Positions 16,640 through 63,053 of a stretch of 64,000 nucleotides of DNA are shown piece by piece; positions within the stretch are counted from its first letter, which is position 1, and each line of letters begins with the position of its first letter. Below the pieces are notes generated by a model. It was not told the origin of the DNA and ran no database searches. It worked only from the letters and a program-made list of their open reading frames with translations. This stretch comes from Asterias amurensis (lineage: Eukaryota; Echinodermata; Asteroidea; Forcipulatida; Asteriidae). A program made the position numbers and the translations under genes. The DNA lies in NCBI RefSeq assembly GCF_032118995.1, contig NC_092665.1:4624001-4688000 (forward strand). The letters run 5' to 3'.

Positions 16640-19600
16640 TTATTGTCTAGAAATACTTGGTTGTGATTCCTCCGATGCAGCGGACACCTCATCTTGCTCA
16701 ATAAATTCAAATTCATCTTGATGATCAGGATTAGAACTGGAGCGACTTCCATTGTCGTCTTCTTCTTCATCTTCCTCTTCTTCTTCCTCATTCTGTTTAT
16801 CTGGATCCTCCTCTTGTACGTCATCACTTGTTACTCCTTTTTCTTCCTCTGTTTCTTTTGTCTCTTCTTCAGTCGTCAAAGTTGTGGTATTGGAAGATTT
16901 TGTGTCTGGTTTGTTGACGTCGAGTTGATAGGCAGGTTGAAATGATTCAAGTATTCCAACATCGGCAAGAAGATTTGGAAATATCCAGAGATGAAATCTC
17001 CCGATAGTACAACCCCACAGAAGGACGAACATGACAAGGCGTACTGCAAGAAGAGATCACAAGTCTTATCTTAAGTTATCTCAAGTGTAGTGTCCTCATC
17101 ACCATTTTTCACGGAGAGATGGGCAAGTCAAAATGTAGAGAAGCTTTTTTATTTTATTAATGGATGCTCAAACTCAAACTGAAAACTATAAACCTTTATT
17201 GTACAGCTTCAGAGCACTGGTGCAGTTTAACCACTTCAAGTCAGATGATTATGCCTGACACAGTGATTTACAATTTATATGGTATGAGTGATAAAGGAAT
17301 TGGGTAATTTTTGTCCAGAGATTAACATTAAACTTACACCGTTTGAAGATAATGGTAGTAGAAAGCTTACCTTAAAATATTAATTGCCGAGGTTGTGTAG
17401 TTTTTGAGAAATTAGTAAAACAAAGTTGAAAATGCTATTTATCTAAACAGTTGTCGTGACTTGTTTTACATTTTTTCAAAAACTACAGCACCTCCGCAAG
17501 TTTTCTACCATCATTATCTTTATTATAAAACTGTGTGCGTTTGAAAGGAACAGGTTGCTCTGGACTCTTAAAACGGACTCTTAAAACATCTTTCTAACCA
17601 TATGAATTACACAAGAAAACAGTTTCAAACTCTCTTTATAGACCAGCTCGTCCGATCAAAGTCAACGTGTTCCTCTAATGTAAATCTGTGGACATTGCGT
17701 TTTGTGTTCTACCAAAAGTACCAAGACCCTCTAAATAGTTAAGTCCCTGTCTTCTTACATGATGAACTTACCAATCGCTAGAGCCAGTACACTTCCCACT
17801 ACACCAGCCCCACCAAGACTTAAATAGTAAGTCCCTGTCTTCCTACATGATGAACTTACAAATCGCTAGACTAGGCCACTTCCTACCACACCAGCGCCAC
17901 CAAGACTTAAATAGTAAGTCCCTGTCTTCCTACATGATGAACTTACAAATCGCTAGAGCCAGTACACTTCCCACTACACCAACCCCACCAAGACTTAAAT
18001 AGTAAGTCCCTGTCTTCCTACATGATGAACCTACCAATCACTAGAGCCAGTACACTTCCCACTACACCAGCCCCACCAAGACTTAAATAGTAAATCCCCG
18101 TCTTCTTACATGATGAACTTATCAATCGCTAGAGCCAGTACACTTCCCACTACACCAGCCCCACCAAGACTTAAATAGTAAGTCCCTGTCTTCCTACATG
18201 ATGAACTTACAAATCGCTAGAGCTAGGCCACTTCCTACCACACCAGCGCCACCAAGACTTAAATAGTAAGTCCCTGTCTTCCTACATGATAAACTTACCA
18301 ATCGCTAGAGCTAAAACACTTCCCACTACACCAGCCCCACCAAGACTTAAATTTAAATAGTAAGTACCTGTCTTCCTACATGATGAACTTACAAATCGCT
18401 AGAGCTAGGCCACTTTCTACCACACCAGCGCCACCAAGACTTAAATAGTAAGTCCCTGTCTTCCTACATGATGAACTTACCAATCGCTAGAGCAAGAACA
18501 CTTCCCACTACACCAGCCCCACCAAGACTTAAATAGTAAGTGCCAGCTCTCATCCATGGTGGCCACAGAGGAAACAAACAAACTCCTATCGCTCCAACAA
18601 CTAAAAAAAACAACAACATAATAACGAAGCTATAATGGAGTCATACTAAGGGAATCAATGTGTGGTGAAGAGGTTTTCAACTAGTGGTTTAATCCCAACG
18701 AGGCCTGGTTCTTCATAATTTTACCGAGACTAAGTCGAGGTAAATTATCAAGAACCAGGCCTCGGCTGGTTTAAACCACTAGTTGAAAAACATAAATTTT
18801 AACAGATTTGTTACTTTATGCATATGTTGAGATACACCAACTGTTCAGACTACTCTTTGACAATTACCAATAGCTGAATAGTGTCCAGTGTCTTTAAAGC
18901 CATTATACACTTTCGGTACAGAAAAAAAAAAAAAGTTTTACAGGGTTTACAGAAGGTAATGGTGAAAGACTTATCTTGAAATATTTTTCCATGAAATGGT
19001 TTACTTTTTGAGAAACCATTAAAACATTATCAATTCTCGATAGCGAGAATTACGGATTTATTTTAAACACATGTCATGACGCTGCGAAACGTGGGGAAAC
19101 AATGGTTGGTTTTCCCGTTATTTTCTCCCGACTCCGATGACCCTAAATTTTCACAGGTTTGTTATTTTATATATAAGTTGTGATACACGAAGTGTGGGCC
19201 TTGGACAATACTGTTTACCGATAGTTTACTCTCAAACCACATAACTACACATTATGAGGGCAATTCGAAGTTAAACTCACCTAGCAACAAACCATATACA
19301 TAGTACATGGGTTTGATTGGGTCATAAATCCACACGTATGCCTGTGGGTGAAAAAAAAAGGAAATGAATATACAATATTGAATAATGAGAAGTTAAAAAG
19401 ATACTGCAGAAGACTATGTTCCATTTCATTAAAGGCACTGGACACTATTGGTAATTACTAAAAAAACTTGTTAATAATAATAATAATAATAATAATAAGA
19501 CTTTTAATGCGCACATATCCACCCTGCTGGGTGTTCAAGGCGCAGAATTGTTGTCATAAAAACATTTATGTTAGCATTTATGTTAACAAAAAAACTTACT

Positions 19601-22600
19601 TGGTAATGAGCAATGATAGTATAAAACCTTATGAAAAATGGCTCCCTCTGAAGTAACGTAGTTTTTGAGAAAGAAATAATTTCTCACTGAAATAATATTT
19701 CAAATGAATTCGAAACCTCAGCTGAGGTCTGGAATTCGATGCATCTGAAAGCACACAACTTGTGCGACAAGGGTGTTTTTTCTTTCATTATTCTCTCACA
19801 ACTTCGACGACCTATTGAGTCTAAATTTATACATGTTGAGATACACTAAGTGAGAATACTGGCCTTAAGAATTACCAATAGTGTCCAATGCCTTTAAGGA
19901 ATGAGAACTTGATACAATAATAAGAGCTTGTCAGAGTTGCGCATGAAGCTGAGACCTGTAAGATCTAAAACTAAAACAGGACACACGACAAAATTAAGTG
20001 CTTATACACCAATCCAGGCACGCAAGTGTTGGGCACCGCGCTCCTACTGCGGAGTACCTGCGCCTAATTTTTTGCACAAAGACACGAGAAAATCATGTTC
20101 CTTTTCACTCTCCATAGAAATTAAATGTTTTCCTCAACGACTTACAAGATTTCCTTGATAGGAGATCATGATATACCAATGTAGATCACTGACCACAAAT
20201 ATTTGCAACTAAAAAGAAACCGAATCATCTTAAAAACGATGCTTGTCTTAGGTGAGTTAGGGGTCAAAGACGCGGAAACTGCATAATAGTTGCTAAAATG
20301 CGTTACATCGGCAAGGTATTTTGTCAGAATTCCAGTATTTTACTTTCTGCTTAATTTTAAAAATTTATCAAGAACGTAGTACATCGTTATATCATGCAGC
20401 CATATCAGGGAAATTGCATAGATTGTCGAGGAAGACATTCAATTCCCGTAAAAAGTGGAAAAGAAAACGATTTTCTTGTGTCTTTGTGCACAAAATTAGG
20501 CACAAGTACACCGCAGCAGTGGCGCGCCACGCCCAGCACTTGCACAACCCGATTTGTGTATACTGTGGGTAAACACAAATAATAACATTATTTATCCCCG
20601 ATTCAAATTTAACATCTGTTAAAATCACTTTGATACCTGCTTTGATTGGTTTTTGAAAGGGCCAGGGCACCAAGGCATTATCTCCTCTGTAAAGGGCACC
20701 CTAAATGTATGACGAAATTGTACAGTTCTACTAGAGCATTTCAATGGAGCACCAAGGCTATGACCAGGGGGCATGGACACAATCGCCTCCATTGAGAAGT
20801 ATACGGTCTGTGCTCTAGAATGAAAATGTCATGGATTCAAATCCCAGAGCGATATGCCTGTGGGGTATGGGGGCTAACTAGCCAGCAGCCGATTTCACGA
20901 AACGCTAGGATTAATCCTAACTCGAGGAAGGACGAGCAACTCGCCCTAACTAAGGAAGGGTTCGATGCGTCCTACGTATTTGGATACGGATCTGAACCTG
21001 TCCTAAGTCCTAAGATTGATCCTAAGTTAGGAAGAGTTTGGTGAAATCGAAGGCTGAACATCTGACGTCACACTTCGAGGCTTGTGAATAACGCCAGAGA
21101 CCTGCCTCGAGACAGGCGTGTATATTCACCTTTGACCTAATACCCTCATTTCAGATAAGGATACGCAGTCAAATTCCATTGTGGACGTGACAGCAGCGAC
21201 TGTTTTGGCACCTATGTCACTGCACGTTTATCAATATCATTGTATCCAATGGAATCACTGGATCTAGCGGCAGGGACCTGTCTTAAAGACCTGCTTCTTG
21301 AACAAAAATGTCAAGTCGTGAACTTTGCTGAATTCCACTTAAAATGTTTTTGATGAATAAGGAAATCGAGTCTATGATTATAAATAGGTTTCAATTGTGT
21401 AAAAAAACAATCATTTTGTATGCCCTTGTCCAGAGCTTTTCTGCAAGATTTGCGAAAAGCCCCGTTACGTAATCACTCTCAAAACGTCATAAGTAGATAA
21501 AGCTGCTTTGTTGCAGCGTGGATGTATAACAAAGCAAACTCCCACAAATGACGTCAGCGGCATTGTTCTTTGACGCCCGCTCTCAATGGCAGATGTGTTT
21601 TTAGTTTTTCAAAAAACCTTTAGGTAGGGGCCTGATTTTTTACTTGATAATTACGAAAAGTTCAGAAGTGTACACATATCAAAATTACATTAAAATGGTG
21701 AACAAGTGCATTATAAACAAGTAAAAATACCATTTCTGTTGAAAACATTCCGCTCAGGTAGCTGTTTAAAGACAGCAGCCCTGTCTAGGGGCTAACTTAT
21801 CACTTTGGCAATAACCGATGAGTAGAAGACCACTTACATCACTTCCATCTTTGAAGTACTGATCGTCTGTGGGCTCAAGTTTTATCTTCCTCTTGCCTTC
21901 CTTGCTCTTCTTAGCTTTTGGTGTTCCCTCTTCCTGTAATAAAAACATGAAACACTTGAAGATTAAGATTAATAATAACATAAGTCTTATCATGCTTATA
22001 AAGCTCATGTACGTGTATCTACCAAACAAGGTACTCAAGGCGCTGAGTACAAACTTTCAGAAAGATTGGTTACTGAAGTTATGAGTTATGAGAGCCAATT
22101 ATGTAGCACTTATAAGGGTTTACAAGGTGCTATGCCGCATACAGAAGCCACAGCCAGGAACCCCAGGGGGAACCCGGGGCCGAACCCCTTCTCTTTTCGT
22201 TAAGTGCACTGGGTTCTTTTATACGCATACACAACACGGGACGAACGGCTTCACGTCCCATCGGTAGGACGAAGCAATGGTTAAGTGTCTTGCTTCAGGA
22301 CACAAGTGTCACGGCTGGGGATTCGAACCCACACTCTGCTGAACAGAAACACCAGAGTTTGAATTCGGCGCTCGCAACCACTCGGCCATGACACTTCCAC
22401 GGGTTGACACGGGTAGAAATTACCAAAACTTGGCCAAGTTTTACTTGGCTGGTGAAATGTCACCGGTTTTGAATATCATCAAGTGGCATATGTGGTGTTT
22501 TTTTTCCAGAAGGCCTCAAGTACATAGTGTTTATCACATACCAGTGTAGGGTAACACCAAAATAATGACATGCTCTCACATCACAGTTAGTAAATGAATA

Positions 22601-25600
22601 TGTCCATATAAAGTTCAAGATAATGAGGCCCATTTTCCTAGAGCTGCTTTAGGCACGAAAAGGAACTAAGCAGAGCTATATTACTTGCAAGAATAAGGCT
22701 ACCAGCCAAAATACCATGTCACATATGTACCATATGTGACTGGTATCCTGAATTTTTTTCGCTTAGCAGAAGGGTCTTTCTGTGTCAAATCACCGAAAGA
22801 AATTGCAAATTGGCTCAAATTAGGTAAATGGGGTAATCGTGGCCCAACAAGCTCAAATTTCAAATTTAAGCTCCATCTGATAAATGGCTTTCATGCTACA
22901 GCATGCTCTTTCTCCTCCATTTCGGTCAAAATGCGCCTGACTGCGGATAGTCAAACGACCATCAATTGAAAACCACTGGGTCAAACTGGTTGAAAATTAA
23001 TGTCTTTGGAGAGGTGCCTTTGTGTGATTTGACACGGAATGACCCAGAAACATTTAAAGGCACTGGACACCTTTAGTAATTGTCGAAGACCATTCTCCTC
23101 ACTTGGTGTATCTCAACATATGCATAAAATAACAAGCGTTTGAAAATTTGAGCTCAATTGGTCATTGAAGTTGCGAGATTATAATACAAGAAAAACACCC
23201 TCGTCACACAAAGTTGTGTGCTTTCAGATGCTTGATTTTGGGACCTCAAAATCTAAGTTCTCACAATGTTTTTATACTAAACACAGCTCTCAACTGCTTG
23301 TTACCTAGTAAGTTTTTATGCTAACATTAACAATTATTTTGAGTAGTTATCAATAGTGTACACTACCTTTAGAGTCATTGGACCTTTTCGGAACAGAAAA
23401 CAAAATAACAGTTTAAAGATTTACAAATAACTTACAGGGTTAACAGAAGGTCATGGTGAAAGACTTCTCTTGAAATATTAGTCCATGAAATGCTTGAGTT
23501 TTTGAAAAAAACATTAAAACAATTATCAATTCTCGATATCGAGAATTACGGATTTATTTTAAACACATGTCATGACACAGCGAAACGTGTGGAAACAAAG
23601 GTGGGTTTTTCCCGTTATTTTCTCCCGACTCTGATGACCGATTGAGCCTAAATTTTCACAGGTTTGTTATATTGTATGTATAAGTTGTGGTACACAAAGT
23701 GTGGGCCTTTGGACAATCCTGTTTACTGAAAGTGTCCAAAGGCTTTAAAGATATTTAAGGCCTTCATTATTTCAACTTACCCTATCATTAACCTCTTTAT
23801 CCACTTTTTCTTTAGTTTCTTTCTCTTGCTTCTTGTCTTTCTTGCTTTTGGTTTCTTCCTTCTTTACATCTTGTACCTTGTCCTCCTTCTTACACTCCTT
23901 ATCTTTTTTCTCGTCTTTCTTGCTTTTTTTCACCACTTTTAGGGCACGATGGAACATCCCCTTCTGCAAAAGTCTGAAACAAAAATTGGGGCATAAAACA
24001 AAACTTGTCAAAGCAAGATGAAACTTGAAGCCAGTGGATGTCAAAAGGTCTCATTCGACGCCATTTTGATGTAACATCACTGAAATTTAGCAATGAACTA
24101 AATATTCCAATAGACCATTTTGAATATGGCGTCGTCATTCAAACATCTGCCCTACACCACGGCGTCTGTGAGTGTGTGCGTGGAGGTGTGTGGCATGTGC
24201 TGTAGAAATTTATCCGGGAACTCTGTGTGTTGTGCGCTTCAAAAATGTACGCTTTAGACGTGCATGTGGTTTGCCCAACAAGATGGCGACTTTCATAGCA
24301 ACAAAAGGGTTATTCAATGGTCTGTACACAAATGTACAGAAACATACAAATCTGCAATACATAGTATCAATTATTTAGATGTTTTTTGATGTTAACAAAT
24401 CTTGCACTAGAAAGGTATCAAATACAACATTTTATTCTAGGTTGCAGGTGGGCACAGAGTCCATGACCTCTGCCGTCCCTGATCTTGGCCTTGGTGCCCT
24501 TTAAAATATTCTCATAGACTTTTAAGTGGAATGGATGTGCCCCTTCCAAAAGTTGTATCCAGAATGCTAGACAGTTTTTTAGAAAGCCGCGTGGAGAACC
24601 CTAGGTTGTGTGAAACTTCACCCCAAATTACTTATTTCTTTGCTCAAAAGCATTTCTTATGGCATTATAAACATGGTCTTTGTCTAGCATTTATCATAAC
24701 AAAAGCCTATCAGTCATGTCAGTGGAGGCAGTTAATTTGAAGTAGGCGTGGCTTACAGTGGCTCACACTTAATTGATGTCTTGTGTCCATGGATGTTTTG
24801 AGCTGTTTCTGTAGTTCGTTAATTTGTGCCACTGACCACTGTGGGAAAAACCCTGACAAGGGAAATTGAAGTTTCTACTCCGACATTTTAAAGGGCATCA
24901 TGGACCTACCTCTGTACATAATAATAATAGCTACTTTTTATACGGCGCTTTTCAAGCCCGAAGGCGTCCCAAAGCGCTTCACATTATTACCCCTGGTCAA
25001 ACTGGGGTACTTTTTCAAAATGTCCATAGATTTACATTAAACTTACAGGGTTTGAAGATAATGATAGTGGATAGCTTCCCTTTAAATATTACTTACTGAT
25101 GTGCTGTAGTTTTTGAGAAATGAGTAAAACAATGTAATGAAAATTTGTTTGTAAAAGCTTAAAATAATTTTCATGACATTGTTTTACTCATTTCCCAAAA
25201 ACTACAGCGCCTCAGCACGTAATATTTTCAAGGAAGTTTTCTACTGTCATCATGATCATTATCTTCAAACTGTGTAAGTTTAGTGCAAATCTGTGGACAT
25301 TGTGTTTTTTGTCCTACAAAAAAGTACATACATCCTTTAAATCATTCCTTAAACCATCTCAACTCCCTGGGGAGTATACAGTATAGCGCTACTTGGCTAA
25401 ATCAATCACAAGAACCATCTCTGTCCCCACAGGTACCCATTTACCCCTGAGTGGAGAAGCAAATGGTTAAATGTCTTGCTCAAGGACACAAGTGTCACGA
25501 CCGGGATTCGCAAACAATCACCTACCGGTCAAGGTACTGTACCACTGAATTCCTGTCTGTAAATAAGATGTCTGTACTGCTCTTGCCAGATGCCCACTTA

Positions 25601-28600
25601 GAGTCTAAAAGCATATCAACGGCTTTAGACCCTGCAATAAAACAACAAAAACAGCCCAATTTATAAGTGATTGATGGATTGAGTTATTGATAAGGGAATC
25701 AATGTGTGGTGAAGAGGTTTTCAACTAGTGGTTTAAACCCAACGAGGCATGGTTCTTGATAATTTTACCGAGACGAAGTCGAGGCAAAATATAAAGAACC
25801 AGGCCTCGGCGGGTTTAAACCACTAGTTGAAAACCGATTCAACACACTTTGATTCTCATTCATAAATACCTTTTCGGTCAAAAAACATCAACACTTTTTG
25901 GTCAAAAGGTATTATAAATGCAAAAATTATAATTGTTCAATGATTTCTTTCAACACAACAACCCTCCAGCAATGAAATGGTAAGGCCCTCGGATAAACGA
26001 CTCCTTATAAGGAGATGCTGTGCATGTCGCGCGTATCGCGTGATGTTGCACAACTGTTTGAGCCGTTGCTCTCGACCAATAGGAATGAAGACAGTGTCTT
26101 TTAAGCACAGGAGCAAGCGCGTGTGTCGCGCCCATGTTTCAACACTTTTTACTGCAGTGTTATATCATCCGTTCAAACAACCCCTTGTGATGCCCTCTCG
26201 ACCAATCAGAATGGATAAACTGTCTTAGGTATTTATGAATGTTTATTATAACATCTATTCGGGGAAAACATTCACAAGTACATGTACACAAAACATTTAA
26301 AAAGAAAAACAAAATCAAGTTAAACAACAGTGGGATGCCCAGGAGAGCATTACAGTTAATAATATTTAACTGCCACATTTCTTTTCCCAGGTATCCCCAG
26401 ACAATCAGGCAAAGACTTGTATTTGACAAAGCGAGGCCATTTTGCAAATTTATGGGACTCGCCTTGGTAAAACAACTTTTGAAATGACACTAAAACAAGA
26501 CTAGGGCAATCTGTGGCCTCCCCGTAACTTTGGGCTATAAACTGATTTACATTGGAACCCTGCATATGTACAGGCCTGATACTTCACAGAGGCAATGGAG
26601 GCGATTGCCTCCGTTGCCCCTTGCCATTGCCTTGGTGCCCTAGAAATGCTCCAGTAGAAATTTACAATTTCCTCATAGGGTGCCCTTTGCCAAAGAGAAA
26701 TGCCTTGGTGCCCTTGCCTTTTCAAAAATGAAGCATACAGGCCTGTATGTACATATTGACTCACTCTGCGGTTGTGCAGTTAATAACGATCCTACATGTA
26801 TCATAACCTAAATTACATGAAGTAGTGTATAGTTAGTCCCAGCCAATTTTCTATACCTTCCGCCCAGGTAGTAGTTAAAAAGTAGGACAGTTCTTTTAAG
26901 AACTGAGAAGTCTCTCGAACAATCCGGCAAATCTACTCCGCGGTAGTAGAATATAGAAAGACAGTTCTCTAAAGAACAAACTCTACCTGGCAAGTAGATA
27001 CACACATGGTGTTACCAGAAACATTGTTACCTCACCATGCAATGCCTCAAGTCATTGATTGTACTTCAAATATTATTGACAAACGAATGGTTTGTTTACC
27101 TGTAAAATAGTCCACCTTGTGGCCCATGAAGTTGCTGTTTTTGGTGGCAAGGTTGAAGCGAAGATGTTTCCCAACTGCAGTCTCCTCATCAGTTGGTTTG
27201 TCAGCTTGCCCTTCCTATATAGAAATACGTGTAGATACAATTTTATGCCATCAAATTCACATTCAAAAGACTGGGGGAATTAGTTCCATAAATACTGCCA
27301 ATCATCAGGCGTCAGGGCCCAATTTCATTTCAAAAATATGCTTAGCATGAAATTTCTTTCTTGACAAAAAACAGGATTACCAACCAAATTTCTGTTGTTT
27401 CATATTGCTTGTTACTGGTATTCAGCTGTTGTTTGCTTATCCTGAAAATCACGTGGAAATTTGGTTGGTAATCCTGTTTTTATCAAGGAAGAAATTCCAT
27501 GCTTAGCAAATTTTTGTGCTTAGCAGCTCTATGACATTGGGCCCTGGACTTGCTGTGATTCTTGGCTCAACTCAGCAACCACAGCTCCTGGGGCAAAAAG
27601 CCTTTTTGAGATATGGCGGACAGCGGACACAATACGTTATAAGTTTTGGTAAATTTGTGTGTACGTGTATCAGTACTGACGTGTATACACTTAAACCAAA
27701 CAGTACACACCTATCACTTCCACCATATGTACCTCAAAAAAGGTTATGGTCTTCCACCTAATAATATGCTCGAATCAAACCAGGAACACCGGGGCGATCC
27801 CCTACTCCATCAAAAAATGCACTGGGTTCTGTTATGTGCGTTACACAACACACAGGACCAACGTGTAGACATCTGGAAGATGCATGATGTTTTAGTGCCA
27901 AGTCACAGACAGCAAGGATTGTTGAAGTAAACTAATCTGTCCCTTGGTCTTGTTGGATACACCTCCCTGATGAGATGGAGCATGCTGATTATCACCTGAA
28001 ACTTGTTAAAGTCACCTGGCAATATAATTTTTTTTTTCAAACATTAGAGTATACGTTTCTGAACAATATATATATTTTTTTTAATGATATAAATATGTTT
28101 ACAAAAATAAATAAAGTTGTGTGGGGGTGACTCCGCCTACCCTTTTTGTGACATCAATCGAGGCAGAGTTTGCCTCGATCGAACATCGAACACCGTACGT
28201 GCAAGTACATTCAAGTCCTAGTCGTGAGTTTGTACATTTCGAAAAAGTTGTTTTCTGGCATTTTTCCGGCAATGTCGATCTGGTGTATTGCTGCTGGATG
28301 CAGCAAAACAACTAAAGATGGGGTCAGTTTGCAAGTCTTTTCCAGCGCTGTGCACATGGTGCAGCAAACACTACGAGCCGTCGTGCTTCGAGAATCCGAA
28401 ATACACTACACATTTTGACATGAAGAAAAAGGTTCTTTTCTGAAACATGACGCCATCCCAATAATTTTTCAAGCTAGTGGGGAAGTCAAAGAAGGTACCT
28501 GAAAGATGTAACAAACCTAAAAAAAAAAAACAGGTATTGTTTTAACCTTGAGGGCATGTTTTTAGCTTGCGCCAAGCTTCACTATCTTGTGTTGGCACTG

Positions 28601-29639
28601 CATGAATTAATCGCGCCTCGATTGACGTCACGTACAGCCCCCTCTCGGGTCGGGCTTATTTTCAAATTTGCAAATAACATGGAAACAAATGTTTTTAAAC
28701 CTTAGTTAATTGTTTATTCATACTTCACTCATCAAAACACATTTTAGTGACAAAAGCTTTATTTTGACAAAAAACTGCACAGGTTTGTAACACCCCTCTC
28801 ACAGAATGGTTTAGTCCGACTCGGCCGCATTATGATTATGAATGCATGTGGGGAAAGTTTTGATAGTGCCGTACAAAAGAAACTTCAGTTATCATGGTTA
28901 TTGGTGGCTAACGGTCGTAAAACTTTGACCTATCAATGCTTATTTGAAAAACGTGTAGCGTTAAGGAGGCCCAAAATATTGGACCCCTCTTAAAATAAAA
29001 GGCTCACGGGGAGCCTTTTATATATTAAACATTTCTAGAAAAAGGGGGGGGGGGTAGGGGAAAAGTTTCCGTATGGCGCCACCACTTTTTCATTCGATAT
29101 GAAAAGTATCTAAAAATGGAAAAGTTTTCGTATGGCGCCACCACTTTTTCATTCGATATGAAATAATATAGTATCTAATTTACCTCAATGAGATATCCCT
29201 TTTTGTAAAAATGCGTGAAAAAGTGGTGGCGCCATATGGAAAGTTATCCCTAAAAATTACCACAATGACTAATGAGATTTCCCTTTATGTAAAAATAAGT
29301 GAAAAAGTGGTGGCGCCATACGGAAAGTTATCCTCACTGACCAGTGCAATTGCATAATAATCGAATGCCACGTTTGACGTCGGTAATGTTTTGTTGATGA
29401 TCGAACAGCTGCTAGGCGGAACCGCTGTGCGTGATGTGGTCACTGTTCTCACAGGCTACTGTACTGTTTTTATTGACACTAAAAACAGTTTATATAACTT
29501 CAATTCTTTCCAAAACAAGACATACGGAACAGTATATGAATACGCATTTTAATGGAACAGTCATAATGAACAATTTACTTCAATTTTAGACATTGCTTAC
29601 ATCTCTCTTCTTTCGTCGTCTATTCTGACGTTCCGCCAT
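16640..29639 (-). CDS. SEC62: SEC62, ER preprotein translocation factor; eight coding exons
   Basis: Sec62 is a two-pass ER membrane protein. It works with Sec61 and Sec63 in post-translational import of short secretory proteins, and in vertebrates it also acts as an ER-phagy receptor. Exons on the minus strand: 29601-29639, 27100-27214, 25526-25631, 23781-23973, 21838-21933, 19281-19341, 18481-18600, 16640-17043. All have GT-AG borders and phases that agree, giving 377 residues (human has 399). The start is MAERQNRRRKKRD, like human MAERRRHKKR. An N-terminal domain includes KHLRFNLATKNSNFMGHKVD and SKAVDMLLDSKWA. A Lys-rich segment covers residues 87-150 (exon 4). KIKLEPTDDQYF and YVWIYDP follow. 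Membrane spans are about 196-216 and 230-252, then FPNLLADVGILESFQPAY. The acidic tail ends with FEFI (355-358), which parallels the human LC3-binding FEMI motif. Exon joins were made by eye; UTRs are not resolved. Confidence 0.93.
17293..17736. repeat. MITE family G with nested family B fragment, in SEC62 intron 7
   Basis: Family G landmarks (ACATTAAACTTACACCGTTTGAAGATAATGG, the hairpin around TTAGTAAAACAAAG, and GTTCTACCAAAAGTACC) flank a shortened family B piece at 17541-17676 (GAAAGGAACAGGTTGC ... CAACGTGTTCCTC). Confidence 0.7.
17741..18537 (-). repeat. Nine tandem 88-bp copies of SEC62 exon 7 end plus 5' splice site
   Basis: The block starting AAGTCCCTGTCTTC recurs at 17741, 17829, 17916, 18004, 18092, 18180, 18268, 18362 and 18450. 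Spacing is 88 bp, except one 87-bp step and one 94-bp step with a 6-bp ATTTAA insertion. On the minus strand each unit is the last 61 bases of exon 7 (TYYLSLGGAGVVGSVLALAI) followed by GTAAGTTCATCATGTAG and 10 more intron bases. The copy at 18450-18537 belongs to the true exon; the other eight lie in intron 7. Most keep a GTAAGT donor, and the copy starting at 18092 has lost it (ATAAGT). Two sequence types partly alternate, which suggests unequal exchange or conversion. Confidence 0.93.
18649..18791. repeat. Hairpin element with CCGAGACTAAGTCGAGG apex
   Basis: The arms TTTTCAACTAGTGGTTTAA and its inverse pair around GCCTGGTTCTTCATAATTTT. A second copy lies at 25687-25835 in SEC62 intron 2, with the same arms and the tip CCGAGACGAAGTCGAGG. 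Confidence 0.75.
18791..18898. repeat. Terminal fragment of MITE family A
   Basis: The right end only: GTTACTTTATGCATATGTTG through CCAATAGCTGAATAGTGTCC and AGTGTCTTTAAAG. It has a small internal insertion and directly abuts the family D copy. Confidence 0.65.
18893..19228. repeat. MITE family D in SEC62 intron 6
   Basis: It begins TTTAAAGCCATTATACACTT and runs to ACAATACTGTTTACCGATAG. It retains the family's ATTCTCGATAGCGAGAAT hairpin. Confidence 0.7.
19431..19897. repeat. MITE family A with (TAA)n insertion, in SEC62 intron 5
   Basis: The ends are TTAAAGGCACTGGACACTAT and CAATAGTGTCCAATGCCTTTAA. Inside the left part an (AAT)n microsatellite followed by AGACTTTTAATGCGCACATA (19473-19550) looks like an inserted SINE/LINE tail. 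Confidence 0.75.
20023..20542. repeat. 520-bp foldback element in SEC62 intron 5
   Basis: The left arm CAAGTGTTGGGCACCGCGCT...TGCACAAAGACACGAGAAAATC pairs with the right arm ending GCCCAGCACTTG. The arms are about 110 bp and the interior is AT-rich. No transposase frame is seen. Confidence 0.65.
20645..20812 (-). repeat. Diverged MITE family E
   Basis: It keeps GAAAGGGCCAGGGCACCAAG, AAAGGGCACCCTA, GCACCAAGGCTATG and a degraded GGAGGCGATTG core, but the CAGGCCTG ends are lost. Confidence 0.6.
20886..21050. repeat. MITE family C1, second copy
   Basis: The sequence is nearly the same as at 69-232, with the same ends and internal GATCTGAACCTGTCC block. Confidence 0.75.
21960..22400 (-). repeat. 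tRNA-headed SINE in SEC62 intron 4
   Basis: Read on the minus strand, the head is TGTCATGGCCGAGTGGTTGC with B-box GGGTTCGAATCCC. The body has AAGCAAGACACTTAACCATT, and the 3' end carries a TTATTATTAATC tail close to exon 5. It is the same family as 5556-5960. A further body fragment lies at about 27770-27880 in intron 1. Confidence 0.8.
23053..23372. repeat. MITE family A in SEC62 intron 4
   Basis: The ends are TTTAAAGGCACTGGACACCT and CAATAGTGTACACTACCTTT. It is somewhat shortened in the middle and directly abuts family D. Confidence 0.75.
23370..23749. repeat. MITE family D in SEC62 intron 4
   Basis: It runs from AGAGTCATTGGACCTTTTCG to AAAGTGTCCAAAGGCTTTAAAG and ends 32 bases before exon 4. 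The central ATTCTCGATATCGAGAAT is a perfect palindrome here. Confidence 0.75.
24919..25511 (-). repeat. SINE lacking its head, with nested MITE G, in SEC62 intron 3
   Basis: On the minus strand it starts GCGAATCCCGGTCGTGACAC, a degraded B-box region. It continues through GACACTTGTGTCCTTGAGCA and ends in a tail with AAGCGCCGTATAAAAAGTAG and (TAT)n. Family G (25005-25345) is inserted within it. The SINE edge lies about 14 bases from the exon 3 splice donor. Confidence 0.65.
25687..25835. repeat. Hairpin element, second copy, in SEC62 intron 2
   Basis: Same arms as 18649-18791 (GGTTTTCAACTAGTGGTTTA and inverse), with tip CCGAGACGAAGTCGAGG. Confidence 0.75.
26571..26746 (+). repeat. MITE family E, complete, in SEC62 intron 2
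   Basis: It is bounded by CAGGCCTG at both ends, with GGAGGCGATTGCCTCC near the left end and CCAAAGAGAAATGCCTTGG near the right end. Confidence 0.8.
26805..27012. repeat. Short repeat with internal hairpins in SEC62 intron 2
   Basis: Two small palindromes, CAGTTCTTTTAAGAACTG and CAGTTCTCTAAAGAAC, sit between GTAG-rich flanks (CCAGGTAGTAGTT, ACTCTACCTGGCAAGTAG). The flanks are weakly inverted, which suggests a MITE. Confidence 0.5.
27320..27543. repeat. Palindromic repeat GGGCCCAATTTCAT family
   Basis: The arms GGGCCCAATTTCATTTCAAA and its inverse, ending CTATGACATTGGGCCC, enclose AGGATTACCAACCAAATTTC on both arms. Degraded relatives are visible at about 22625-22700, 45468-45600 and 53490-53660. 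Confidence 0.65.
28006..28777 (+). mobile_element. THAP-domain transposon fossil in SEC62 intron 1
   Basis: From 28273 the plus strand reads MSIWCIAAGCSKTTKDGVSL, the start of a C2CH THAP zinc finger, with C-x4-C spacing and KDGVSLQVF. Further on, another frame gives CSKHYEPSCFEN and then KKKVLLKHDAIP, the usual C-terminal end of that domain. The frames do not agree and no transposase follows, so the protein is broken. The surrounding sequence (TTAAAGTCACCTGG at left, GATTGACGTCACGTACAGCC at right) is found in inverse in the foldback at 42829-43390. THAP fingers are typical of P-type transposases. Confidence 0.65.
28985..29340. repeat. Composite foldback with GGCGCCACCACTTTTTCA arms
   Basis: Two forward arms (TATGGCGCCACCACTTTTTC at about 29073 and 29132) are followed by two inverse arms (GAAAAAGTGGTGGCGCCATA at about 29217 and 29301). 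The order is forward-forward-inverse-inverse, as if one element had inserted into the mirror position of another. Confidence 0.75.
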
Positions 29640-31830: not shown

Positions 31831-31920
31831 ATTACAAAACAATGTTTTGCCCGAGGTAACAACCCGCATACAACCGACCACGAGATCAATGTAAACGTAC
31901 ATAATCGTTTGCCACTGGGA

Positions 31921-34379
31921 ATATGGCGTGTCAAACGTTGCGTTATTCGATAATGTACAATATATGTGCGATGTTTCTCATATATATGCGATAATTGTCA
32001 CATATGTGCGATATTCATTTGATGTATGCAATAAATGTAGTATATATGCAATAAATGTAATATATATGCAATAAATGTAATATATATGCAATAAATTGTA
32101 ATATATGTGCGATAAATTGTTATATATGTGCGATAAATTGTAATATATGTGCGATAAATTGTAATATATGTGCGATAAATTGTAATATATGTGCGATAAA
32201 TTGTAATATATGTGCAATAATTTGCAATATATGTGCGATAATTTGCAATATATATGCGATAATTTTTAATATATGTTTGATAATTTTGTAGTATATTATA
32301 TGCGATCATTTGTATGCGATGTTTTGTGACGGTATACATATGCGATAATTTAATATACATGTGCGATGTTCGTTCTTATATATGTGCGAAAACGGAATTG
32401 TGGGATATAGTATGGCTTCCTGTCCACTTGATCCCCGTATCCGTAATGTTTTAGATCGGGCCAGACTATACTCTGGACGGTATAGTATGGTTCCTATGGT
32501 TCAATGAGATTGGCGTAGGGTTTATAGTGATGGTCAGGGTACGAGACTCGAGCAGCGTATTTCCGAAATAGCCAGCCAGCCGCGTATTTGGATAATAGAA
32601 CACATACAGTACAGGGAGGTGACAAAATGTTGCATTTTGCTCAAATCTGAAGGTGAAGATCTGTTTTACTCGAACGAATTCTGCAATATTAGCATAATTT
32701 AGAATTTTTAATTGATAATAATGTCAATTTCATAGCTTCACATGATTAAAAAATAATTTATAAAAAGTGAAAAACATTAACAAAACGTCAAAAAATGACC
32801 CGCAAACAAAAAGGCAAAAATTTTTATTTTGTATTTTTTGCATTTTTTAATATGTCAAAAAACTCACTGTGAAATACAAAATCATAACTTGAAAAGAATT
32901 TATACTCTTCGTTAAAACAAAACATTTAATTTGTAATCCAGAACTTTCAAGACTAATATAGTGGGCGTATCAAATTTTGGAGCTGGGTAAATTTGGTTCA
33001 CTATCTAGTGGTTCACTATCTAGTGGTATCTAGCTCAAAATTTGATACGTTTAGTCTATCTTCCTTCAAGATTCTGAAACAAGAAAGCAACTTTTTGTCT
33101 TAACGAAGGGTTCAAATTCTTTTCAAATTGTGTTTAAGTCCACCGTCTATGTAATTGGGCGGAATGTACATTGACAATGGCGTCAGAATAACTGTGGTTA
33201 ATTAACCACTAGATAGTGAACCAAATTTATCCAGCTCCAAAATTTGATACGCCCACTATATTAGTCTTGAAAGTTCTGGATTACAAATTAAATGTTTTGT
33301 TTTAACGAAGGGTATAAATTCTTTTCAAGTTATGGTTTTGTATTTTTCACAGTGATTTTTTGACATATTAAAAAATGCAAAATATACAAAATAAAAATTT
33401 TTGCCTTTTTGTTTGCGGGTCATTTTTTGACGTTTTGTTAATGTTTTTCACTTTTTATAAATTATTTTTTTAATCATGTGAAGCTATGAAATTGACATAT
33501 TATCAATTAACATATCTAAGTTATGCTAATATTGCAGAATTCGTTCGAGTAAAACAGATCTTCACCTTCAGATTTGAGCAAAATGCAACATTTTGCCACC
33601 TCCCTGTACTGTATGTGTTCTATTATCCGAATACGCGGCTGGCTGGCTATTTCGGAAATACGCTGCTCGAGTCTCGTACCCTGACCATCACTATAAACCC
33701 TACGCCAATCTCATTGAACCATAGGAACCATACTATACCGTCCAGAGTATAGTCTGGCCCGATCTAAAACATTACGGATACGGGGATCAAGTGGACAGGA
33801 AGCCATACTATATCCCACAATTCCGTTTTCGCACATATATAAGAACGAACATCGCACATGTATATTAAATTATCGCACATGTATACCGTCACAAAACATC
33901 GCATACAAATGATCGTATATAATATACTACAAAATTATCAAACATATATTAAAAATTATCGCATATATATTGCAAATTATCGCACATATATTGCAAATTA
34001 TTGCACATATATTACAATTTATCGCACATATATTACAATTTATCGCACATATATTACAATTTATCGCACATATATTACAATTTATCGCACATATATTACA
34101 ATTTATCGCACATATATTACAATTTATCGCACATATATTACAATTTATCGCACATATATTACAATTTATTGCATATATATTACATTAATTGCATATATAT
34201 TACATTAATTGCATATATATTACATTAATTGCATATATATTACATTTATTGCATATATATTACATTTATTGCATACATCAAATGAATATCGCACATATGT
34301 GACAATTATCGCATATATATGAGAAACATCGCACATATATTGTACATTATCGAATAATGCAACGTTTGACACGCCATAT
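31921..34379. mobile_element. Giant foldback element, arms of about 1.1 kb with internal satellite
   Basis: The left arm (31921-33012) and right arm (33204-34379) are near-perfect reverse complements. Both outer ends are ATATGGCGTGTCAAACGTTG, and the flanks are GGGA on both sides (31917-31920 and 34380-34383), a possible 4-bp target duplication. Each arm contains tandem 21-bp units like TATATGTGCGATAAATTGTAA, an AT-rich block with TGACCCGCAAACAAAAAGGC, and an inner edge CACTATCTAGTGGTT. The 191-bp spacer repeats a diverged piece of the inner arm. No transposase frame is present; frames across the satellite are by-products of its period. Confidence 0.85.
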
Positions 34380-58570: not shown

Positions 58571-60203
58571 GGTCAAGACACAATAATTCTTGCTGGCTGT
58601 AAACGAGGGGGTTTTATAATATGGAAAGATAATAAACACAGGCGTCCAATTACTTCTATACACTACATGGACCTCTGCATTTTTTGACTTATGTAGCAGT
58701 GTATTGGCGAGCTCATCTCCATAGAACACATAGAATGATTGAAATAGTGTCAGATCGTACGCACAGAGAGCAGCAGCTCGTCCAATAAGGGGGGATGGCG
58801 CACTTTTAGAATGAGGCAGCAATTAACACCAGTTAGATCATCGGCATAATTGACGATGAATTATGGGCATTGCACGTCACAGCACCATGTGTTAATCAAG
58901 CTCTAGAACAAAGTGTACATAAAGAATAGAAGGGCAATACCAAGTTTCATTATGAACTTTGGGAGTGATTGATCATTATTAGGCACTAAATGGCCAGCTT
59001 CCATAAATCAAGGGGTAGCCTATTGCATAATATTAAAATTAAAGACCATTGCATCTTCTTCCATTTGTACATACGTATCTGGTATTTCATATGTTTAATG
59101 AATAGGGTATAGATGGCCTTAGCTTTCGATCCAAACCGGACCTAGTTCAGAGGCATAAAACAAGTACAAACAAATACATATCCATTCATAGAAAAAGAGA
59201 GGGGAAATGGATTAAATGAAGAAAGAAGCGGGAAAGAAAGAAGCGGGAAAATAACAGCCAATCAAAGTTTCTATTTCAGAAACAATTGGTGGCTATGAAC
59301 CAATACGTGTAGAGTGGCGAGGACAAAGGAGGTTTCATATGAAAGGATGGATTACTGGACCATAAAAGTGGTAAATGCATTGTTCGTTAACAATGCAGGG
59401 AAACATGAAAGGGTAGAATTAGAGAACAAGTTGCATCATGATGCAATTAACAATGGTCAATTAATAGAGAAAAGCAAGATCAAAGGTACGATGGTATTAA
59501 TAGGTATGAGGGACCTGTGGAAAAAAGAAGGGGGTTACTTACATGAGATAGTTGTAGTAACAAATATATAGGACAACTAAAAAAAAAAAAAAAAAAAAAT
59601 TATACTTCAGTTACAGAATATAAACAACATTATAGTTCTCAAGCAGAAGTGAAGTGGGGGTAACGGGAAGTTATTTAACACCAGTGTTTATGTTTAGTCC
59701 AAAGGACTTGACTGTCTTGAGTTGGTGAATCCAGTGTGATTCTCTATGCTTGCAGTTATATTTCATATGTTCATAAATTGCACAAATGGGAGGATCCCAC
59801 GGGTAGTTTCATTGTTTCTAAGATGAAAGAGGATTGTAGACGCTTGGACCCTAGGCAAGATTCAAGATGTTCCATTACATTTCCAGTGCTGAGCAGTCTG
59901 GTGGTTAGTATTTTACCGCCAGTCTGCAAACTATTGAATTATTCGGTTGTGTCCTGAGGCGAATTAGAATAAATCTGCTTTATACTTGTTATGTAAAAAG
60001 AGTTACACGGTTCAATGGTTTGGCGGGAACATTGAATAGGACTGGGTGCGGTACCCAGAGTAAGGCTTATCTGGCTATGCTATCAATATACACATTAAAG
60101 CTTTGTTAATTTAGTCTTTTCTTAGTCGTTATTTAGTTTAAGTATCATCGGTAACAGTAGCAGTAGCATTCTTGGTTGCCCTTTTCGGTTATTCTGAGGG
60201 TGA

Positions 60204-60560
60204 GTGAGTTTACAACTCACGATGGCAAATTCCCGGGCGTTGCGTATTGGTGATATTTTCTTTAATCAGGAAGGGAATTTGCAAGTAGTTCTAAGATATT
60301 CAAAAACGGATCAAGTGGGTAAAGTTCAATCATTTCTATTGACAGGAATGCCAATACTTCTCTGTTTGTACATTGAGGGGGGACCCTATGTCAGCCAGAC
60401 AAGTTAATCACATCTTAAAGTAGGGATTAAGGCCATCAGGTAAACCCCACACCCTTTTCAGTTCATAGTTGCAGGATATGTTTGGGGTTCGGGAGGAACG
60501 AATCAAAAGTATGGGGAGATGGAAGTCTGGAGCACTTGAATCCTACATTAGGCCAGACTT
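60204..60560 (+). mobile_element. Tyrosine recombinase remnant of the Ngaro-type element
   Basis: MANSRALRIGDIFF and VVLRYSKTDQVGK match the central core of YR-retroelement recombinases. The C-terminal GRW...SYIR signature of the family is recognisable near 60510-60555. The enzyme would insert a circular DNA intermediate by site-specific crossover. The gene is broken. Confidence 0.7.
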
Positions 60561-60809
60561 AATGTTTTCAATTGTCTAAAAGGGGGTAGCTTGTAGCAAG
60601 GTCATAAATAAGCAGTGTAGACAACCGCTTCTTTAATTAGCATGTTGCTGTTTAAGATAAATAATCGTTTACAAGATTGGTGAATGTTGAGTTGGTTGTT
60701 AACAAATTGTGTACAACATTTTCAACTACATACAAGACTTTGACAAGATAAAATATTGGTCAGAACAGATTACCCAGGCTGTTTTTCTTTGAATTTGTTT
60801 TTATACAGA

Positions 60810-61270
60810 TGTTTATCGGGGACAGTATCATTCGCCACAGCAGCGGCACGGTGGTACAGTGACATGGAAAGGCGTGTCTGGGGCACGCCTGGACGACTGG
60901 GACTAGGCTCAGGAGATACGGCAAAAGGCGAGGTCCCGACGACAACAGTGTTACATCTAAGGACCAAAGATATCTTGAAGGAAAATTCGGGATAGATAAG
61001 ACATAGGGTAAAAGGGAGCCTAAAGATGTTCATTAATCCGATGCAAGAACGTGGGTACCGGGACAGTATCATTCGCCACAGCAGCGGCACGGTGGAGGTA
61101 CAGTGACATGGAAAGACGTGTCTGGGGCACGCCTGGACGGCTGGGACTAGGCTCAGGAGATTCCTGGCAAAAGGCGAGGTCCCGACGACAATAGTGTTAT
61201 ATCTAGGGACCAAAGATATCTTGAAGGAAAATTCGGGACAGAGTAGACATAGGGTAAAGAGAGCCTAAAG
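60810..61270 (+). repeat. Duplicated SGNH-hydrolase-like segment of the Ngaro-type element
   Basis: A roughly 210-bp block starting GGGACAGTATCATTCGCCAC occurs at 60818 and again at 61059. One frame gives a GDSII motif and a G-A-R-L-D-D-W segment, like the SGNH hydrolase domain known from Ngaro elements. The second copy is a near-identical direct duplication. Confidence 0.55.
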
Positions 61271-61625
61271 GTAATTAGGAACATCCTACCCAACACACGG
61301 TTAATTTGGTCAGACATTTTGTTAAGGGTGAAGTATCAAGGTAAAGTTAATGGAGGGCAGAAAAACGCTGCACTTGGGATTTAAATATGTATGCAAAGAA
61401 GATACTTCGGGAGATGCAAAACGCACCTGTTATAAAACACCCCCATCTCATTAACCCTTCCCGGAAGGTGCGTACTGCAAGACATGATTCATTTGGTTCC
61501 ATCAAAATTTATCAGACGGGTTGAGGTTCTCCACTTCACACTCGGAGAAAGTTTTGTTAAAAAAAAAAAAAAAAAAAAAAGGGGGAGGGGTGTTTGGGCA
61601 AATTTTTATATCAAAATTTGCTTTG

Positions 61626-62169
61626 GCGGTAAGTTTAGGTTGTTCCTATAAACAAGAAGCTAATAGGCATTGTAGCCTGTGAGGAAGTGGTAAATTAATT
61701 TATGTGAATTGATATGGATAAATATGGTGGTAATAAAATGATGTGATTGTATATAAAGAAGTAGATTAATTTGGTACCTTCTTGGCAACTCGCTGGAAGT
61801 GGGAACCTCATTGACCCGGAGTTTTCTCCAGTCAATGAGTGCATTTATAATTATAATAATTGTAATTAGTCTGGTACCTTCTATGGCAAATCGCCGAGAA
61901 GTGGGAACCTTTGCGGATTGGAAATTTACCGTTCGCAAAGTGAGGAATTGGGACCCTTTGCGAATTGGTCGCAAAGTGTATTATAATGGGAACTGGTATA
62001 CTTCTTTATGAGTGGATATCACTGGATGGAATTAAATAAAAAGAAATCCCGTATATTATTATGAATTGGCGTTTTACCACCGAATTCAGAGTACGGAATA
62101 AATTAACTCTTGACAGAGTTCACTACAACAACAAATCCTTGTGTCTGTGTATATTTATCAGGTGGTAAT
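61626..62169 (+). repeat. Ngaro-type repeat B1
   Basis: 544 bp starting GCGGTAAGTTTAGG and ending GGTGGTAAT. It holds small inverted pairs such as GGTACCTTCTTGGCAA / GGGAACC. It runs directly into A2. Confidence 0.9.
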
Positions 62170-62413
62170 AGGGTTTAATGCGTAACGCAGTAAACCGAAT
62201 TAACACCAGGAAATATGCATAGTTATAGTCAGGTTGCACAGTCGGGGCTATAAGCGATTGGGATTGTCAGGGCGCATTCAGACGTGGTTCCATTGTTCTT
62301 TTCAACCAACCAAAGCAATGCATTTGGGGAAAGGGTGCTTGTCTTTCTGGGAACCGTCATTGAATATTCTGCCACCGAGGAGTTAAGATAGATTGTATAG
62401 TTTCGCAAAATTC
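62165..62413 (+). repeat. Ngaro-type repeat A2
   Basis: Copy of A1 lying between B1 and B2. It shares the 5-bp GTAAT with the end of B1 and is followed by CCTCCCTCCC. Confidence 0.9.
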
Positions 62414-62509
62414 CCTCCCTCCCTCCCTGGGGTTAATGGAAGGGTCAGGGTATTACGGAATACGCGGTACAGATTGAGTTGACTGATAATCTTACAACTT
62501 ACACTTAAA

Positions 62510-63053
62510 GCGGTAAGTTTAGGTTGTTCCTATAAACAAGAAGCTAATAGGCATTGTAGCCTGTGAGGAAGTGGTGAATTAATTTATGTGAATTGATATG
62601 GATAAATATGGTGGTAATAAAATGATGTGATTGTATATAAAGAAGTAGATTAATTTGGTACCTTCTTGGCAACTCGCTGGAAGTGGGAACCTCATTGACC
62701 CGGAGTTTTCTCCAGTCAATGAGTGCATTTATAATTATAATAATTGTAATTAGTCTGGTACCTTCTTTGGCAAATCGCCGAGAAGTGGGAACCTTTGCGG
62801 ATTGGAAATTTACCGTTCGCAAAGTGAGGAATTGGGACCCTTTGCGAATTGGTCGCAAAGTGTATTATAATGGGAACTGGTATACTTCTTTATGAGTGGA
62901 TATCACTGGATGGAATTAAATAAAGGGAAATCCCTTATATTATTATGAATTGGCGTTTTACCACCGAATTCAGAGTACGGAATAAATTAACTCTTGGCAG
63001 AGTTCACTACAACAACAAATCCTTGTGTCTGTGTATATTTATCAGGTGGTAAT
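62510..63053 (+). repeat. Ngaro-type repeat B2
   Basis: Same length and sequence as B1, with about six substitutions. The last bases GGTGGTAAT mark the right end of the element. Confidence 0.9.

Follow-up and report, generated by a model that had tools for sequence, protein, structure and literature searches.

A tandem array of exon 7 ends and splice donors in the SEC62 gene of Asterias amurensis

In SEC62 of Asterias amurensis, the true 5′ splice site of exon 7 is followed by a row of near-identical copies. An earlier note on this DNA left it open whether the row is a repeat that has grown without harm or a device restricting full-length Sec62, and this is the question addressed here. The window, i.e. 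the whole stretch of DNA that was analysed, comprises 64,000 nucleotides (C18:4624001-4688000), and the genome searched has 491,506,623 bases on 23 contigs. SEC62 is encoded on the minus strand of the window from 29639 to 16640 in eight exons with an uninterrupted frame, giving a product of 377 amino acids. The joined product matches Pfam Sec62 (PF03839) with an E value of 1.2e-61 and 208.3 bits (curated cut-off 27.8) over profile positions 1-190 of 191, and it aligns with the solved Sec62 chains 7kal_G and 7aft_G, with a conserved ALAIVRL region. Hydropathy revealed two hydrophobic stretches, residues ~192-220 and ~224-265. The junction of exons 7 and 8 encodes ALAI/VRL, matching ALAIVRL in 7kal_G, and since this junction is common to both, the authentic donor is that at 18480. 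The gene and its array are composed as follows (window positions):

29601..29639, minus strand: SEC62 exon 1, coding part from the ATG (start codon by frame only)
27100..27214, minus strand: SEC62 exon 2
25526..25631, minus strand: SEC62 exon 3
23781..23973, minus strand: SEC62 exon 4
21838..21933, minus strand: SEC62 exon 5
19281..19341, minus strand: SEC62 exon 6
18481..18600, minus strand: SEC62 exon 7, 120 nt, acceptor tatgttgttgttttttttag, donor gtaagttca, frame preserved
18481..18541, minus strand: first array unit, comprising the final 61 nt of exon 7
18464..18480, minus strand: true donor GTAAGT and in-frame read-through stop TAG (18466-18464)
17745..18453, minus strand: eight full extra units (unit list and alignment)
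17720..17744, minus strand: degraded partial unit at the distal end, ACTTAACTATTTAGAGGGTCTTGG... (lower end approximate)
16640..17043, minus strand: SEC62 exon 8 with acidic tail, FEFI (residues 355-358) and stop codon

Tandem Repeats Finder called the array at 17732-18541 with a period of 88, 9.1 copies and a score of 1284, a score that rules out a chance origin. The call begins within exon 7 and extends into intron 7, and the array thus crosses the exon-intron border, as had been noted. Each unit, of about 88 bp, combines the final 61 nt of exon 7 with 27 nt of intron 7. All eight extra copies of the exon 7 end described before inside intron 7 were recovered as full units, followed by the degraded stub. 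On the minus strand they start at 18453, 18365, 18271, 18183, 18095, 18007, 17919 and 17832, the fifth at 18094 or 18095 depending on the choice of the boundary cut, and they are 88, 94, 88, 88, 88, 88, 87 and 88 nt long, respectively. We denote the true exon end of the window as w0 and the extra units as w1-w8; d0-d18 are those of a second SEC62 copy described below. With the unit as query, the genome yielded 28 matches (9 + 19, true exon ends included), all of them in the two SEC62 regions. A further match at C1:7033262, outside these 28, covers 17 bases in dissimilar surroundings and was dismissed as chance. Tandem repeats are common in A. amurensis; Tandem Repeats Finder is reported to mark 13.95% of another assembly (PMC11090083).

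The second SEC62 region, C18:6346925-6360571, is 1.7 Mb away and harbors an intact SEC62 with the same eight exons and 377 amino acids. Only these two regions were over the cut-off in a Sec62 profile search of the genome; a match on C2 (E 0.8) stayed below it. The array of the second copy has 18 extra units versus 8 in the window, and the orders of the units differ. Eight codons are different between the two genes, five synonymously and three nonsynonymously. The three amino-acid differences, at codons 111, 114 and 148 (D/E, C/G and V/I), all fall within the lysine-rich linker specified by exon 4. Collinear blocks of 96.4-99.2% identity, with large insertions and deletions, span much of window positions 1-52400, and collinearity reaches at least 4607377 on one side.

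Such a pair of regions raises the suspicion of an assembly artefact, in which the array or its length would be erroneous and the second region a retained haplotype and not a second gene. The collinear blocks with their high identity and their insertions and deletions are consistent with this, and a k-mer heterozygosity of 0.96%, reported for another individual (PMC11090083), means that the second region could be allelic. However, both regions have the array, each with its own order of units, and the 19-unit version at the second region makes an expansion artefact at a single place, a possibility raised in the earlier note, unlikely. The published assembly is described as made from HiFi reads of ~15-kb fragments, longer than either array, with purge_dups (PMC10625585). 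A simple haplotype is also at odds with the surroundings: of six probes from C18:5.15-6.25 Mb, four have several copies of 99-100% identity in C18:5.1-7.2 Mb (copy numbers per probe being lower bounds, with 40 of 844 candidates scored), one is a dispersed repeat and one matched only itself. Probes at C18:4.0, 4.2, 4.5 and 4.55 Mb matched only themselves in all four cases, among 40 of 137 candidates scored. Altogether, an artefact appears quite improbable, and the second region may be a paralogue or a retained haplotype.

Several other features of these regions were observed. C18:5.1-7.2 Mb is a locally amplified region or assembly redundancy that adjoins SEC62. A sex-chromosomal nature of the second copy was considered and rejected, since the region reported as a candidate in A. 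amurensis is located on chromosome 10 (PMC11757944); that paper mentions neither "chromosome 18" nor "chr18", and the contig numbers used here need not equal its chromosome numbers. Two long 21-bp tandem arrays at 31959-32296 and 33922-34341 of the window are ~1.6 kb apart, and their consensus units look mutually reverse-complementary. The stretch 31911-34379 is largely absent from the second copy (2.47 kb versus 0.82 kb between the flanking blocks) and has the appearance of an insertion that carries an inverted pair of repeat arrays close to its ends. Window positions 60163-63053 contain a high-copy repeat with copies of 95-99% identity on many contigs; at least 74 matches to a 3.9-kb query were found, with 40 of 1562 candidates scored.

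How good are the donors of the extra units? It had been claimed that each unit carries GTAAGTTCATC and that most donors are intact. The exact GTAAGTTCATC is present in five of the eight extra window units, whereas unit 2 has GTAAGTTTATC, unit 4 has ATAAGTTCATC, by which the donor is lost, and unit 5 has GTAGGTTCATC. GT is indeed retained in seven of the eight, but four of these seven have T instead of G at the -1 site, and their calculated pairing with the 5′ end of U1 falls to -4.9 kcal/mol from -8.6 kcal/mol for the true donor. Three extra donors are similar to the true one (-8.3 to -8.6 kcal/mol) and the dead donor of w4 is at -2.0 kcal/mol. The other donors of SEC62 range from -4.3 to -10.1 kcal/mol; the sites at -4.9 kcal/mol are therefore no weaker than two real SEC62 donors. 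In the second copy, GT is present in 17 of the 18 extra units, 14 of the 18 reach -8.3 to -8.6 kcal/mol in pairing with U1 and three have T at -1. Given this strong pairing (3/8 in the window, 14/18 in the second copy), some use of distal donors is plausible.

Preservation of the donors can be judged from minor alleles among the units. There are 2 in the 6 nt of the donor hexamer, 22 in the 60 nt of the exon part, 5 in the 21 nt of the other intron part and 1 at the single -1 site, in counts that leave out the rows w0, d0 and d18 (the donor of d18 is dead). By this weak test the donors do not appear to be preserved any better than other parts of the unit, and each array has one dead donor (w4 and d18). 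We also considered a hairpin, because ACTTAC, with which the unit starts, and the donor GTAAGT are reverse complements. Donor pairing with the next unit was predicted with mean probabilities of 0.21-0.73 for the eight window donors listed. The unpaired probability of positions +1 to +6 is 0.018-0.168 for the GT-keeping window donors, compared to 0.0014-0.20 for the other six SEC62 donors and a median of 0.064 for 22 other GTAAGT on the same strand; for the true donor it is 0.063 in a model without the array versus 0.043. With accessibility being ordinary, the hairpin idea was rejected: predicted folding sets the array donors apart neither as more nor as less accessible.

If a distal donor were used, translation would read past the true donor through GKFIM into the TAG, and the product would have 248 of 377 amino acids. 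The claims that distal use reaches this stop and removes the tail with FEFI, which is beyond the 248-residue end, are correct with respect to the frame. The predicted end is, however, not after the second membrane span, as had been stated, but inside it, and the remaining span keeps a hydrophobic core as judged by hydropathy. For any distal donor the stop is 71-692 nt ahead of the junction. The usual limit for nonsense-mediated decay is a stop-to-junction distance of 50-55 nt. By this rule decay of the RNA is expected, and it would be a likelier outcome of distal donor use than a truncated Sec62 protein.

The closest precedent is intron 7 of human F7, where a donor-bearing array is already known. 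It has a variable number of highly similar 37-bp repeats that begin at the authentic exon 7 donor, and the most upstream donor alone is reported to be used, a rule found in mammals (PMC6627357). Like the F7 array, the SEC62 array begins at the authentic donor, with the exon 7 end and its donor as first unit, and repeats the donor in nearly every unit. Repeat number varies in F7; in SEC62 it differs between two regions that may be alleles or paralogues. Unlike F7, SEC62 is another gene in another phylum, and 61 nt of its 88-bp unit are coding. Use of the first donor is reported for F7 and would apply to SEC62 by precedent. Our literature search for a donor-bearing tandem array across an exon-intron boundary, in SEC62 or Asterias or in general, retrieved no paper.

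One could imagine that the array acts as a splicing rheostat: the row of donors would divert a fraction of the transcripts to decay or to the 248-residue Sec62, and the length of the array would set the level of full-length Sec62. The seven GT-keeping donors, three of them strong, are in line with this, as are the distal stops, every one of which is past the usual decay limit. The tail that would be lost holds FEFI, which resembles the human LIR, FEMI (PMC6971691), and may itself work as a LIR. On the other hand, the donor positions are preserved no better than other parts of the unit, each array has a dead donor, the copies differ twofold in unit number, and in the F7 precedent only the first donor is used. 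We therefore regard a rheostat as unlikely. Of the two possibilities in the earlier note, the device remained without support and the sequence favours growth.

In the AGGT model, introns originate by tandem genomic duplication of a stretch in which an exonic part is joined to a splice signal (PMC3443670). The SEC62 duplication also contains both, but it spans an existing exon/intron border, giving extra donors and no new intron. For a new intron the duplicate has to supply donor and acceptor; in SEC62 the acceptor-like unit starts are poor in pyrimidines (6/15 versus 10-14) and the donor comes from the existing intron.

The 28 units from the two regions were aligned. In the automated count, minor alleles of the exon part that are shared by at least two units are synonymous in 9 and nonsynonymous in 5 cases (9/14), whereas those private to one unit are synonymous in 1 and nonsynonymous in 8 (1/9; Fisher p 0.029). 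Counting by hand gave 9:3 versus 2:11 (p 0.005), or 9:4 versus 2:11 (p 0.015) when the -1 donor site was included. About 31% synonymous changes are expected by chance for the unit sequence at a transition/transversion weight of 2, and indels were left out of all counts. These tests are post hoc, with small numbers and no outgroup, and the frequent silent changes go together in a small number of unit types, so that they are not independent events. Codon 16 is CTG, CTA, TTA or CTT, all encoding Leu, in 27 of the 28 units, and codons 8, 11 and 12 switch silently among units. The most frequent amino-acid replacement, present in nine units, turns Val at codon 15 into Gly. Among the indels, an insert of 6 nt in w2, d1 and d6 preserves the frame, whereas w7 carries a deletion and d4 an insertion that shift it.

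The mostly synonymous nature of shared changes could also be expected if the units were cassette exons of 63 nt (GG + 61 nt, after CAG) in phase 1 that add or swap a 21-residue half of the second membrane span. Most units have CAG/GG ahead and a donor behind, and GG + 61 nt would preserve the frame between phase-1 introns. The stretch ahead of the CAG, however, has 6 pyrimidines in 15 positions compared to 10-14 in the seven real SEC62 acceptors, and adjacent units are separated by only 25 nt, too short for an intron. Moreover, w7 and d4 are frameshifted and private changes are mostly nonsynonymous. The cassette idea was rejected on acceptor quality and frameshifts, and we hold it to be highly improbable.

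The pattern looks instead as though founder units had once been part of the working exon, a notion that is new here: in our reading, the old unit types would have arisen under coding constraint while occupying the exon slot, and intronic units would have been free to change afterwards. Comparison of the working exon ends between the two copies shows two adjacent codons that differ, both synonymously (GTT CTT in the window versus GTA CTG), and each type recurs in other units. All three units with the 6-nt insert (w2, d1, d6) are preceded by a unit that ends in GGT; in the second copy it is the working exon unit d0, as though the start of the exon had been joined to a unit of the array by a deletion. 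The differing silent types of the exon and the GGT-ending neighbours of the insert units point to exchange between slot and array. It is tempting to speculate that SEC62 exon 7 ends in an exchangeable slot, whose content is repeatedly replaced by array units through unequal exchange or conversion, with selection passing those units that encode the membrane span and a donor. We propose this only tentatively, as a possibility that we would not yet call probable. If true, the array would be a self-made reservoir for a coding exon and, at the same time, a source from which damaging alleles could arise permanently.

The explanation that we favour, and consider probable, is a minisatellite with the first donor mostly used. 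It would have started by tandem duplication of 88 bp across the border of exon 7 and intron 7 and grown by unequal exchange or gene conversion. Repeat growth is favoured by the 8 versus 18 extra units in near-identical copies, by donors that are not better kept, by ordinary accessibility and by the F7 precedent. The working exon end would be the first unit, so that the exon is inside the array and shares its turnover, with selection acting on whichever unit occupies the exon slot. Splicing would most likely take place at the first donor, the other units being removed with intron 7, and mRNA that leaks to a distal donor should meet the early stop and be degraded. The array is probably near-neutral for splicing.

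In SEC62 of A. amurensis a coding exon end seems to evolve within a minisatellite, so that coding sequence can be replaced by unequal exchange. Annotation and variant calling at the array are likely unreliable for this reason. In addition, the locus offers, in an echinoderm, a natural experiment on how one of as many as 19 near-identical donors is chosen, and the mammalian first-donor rule is testable there.
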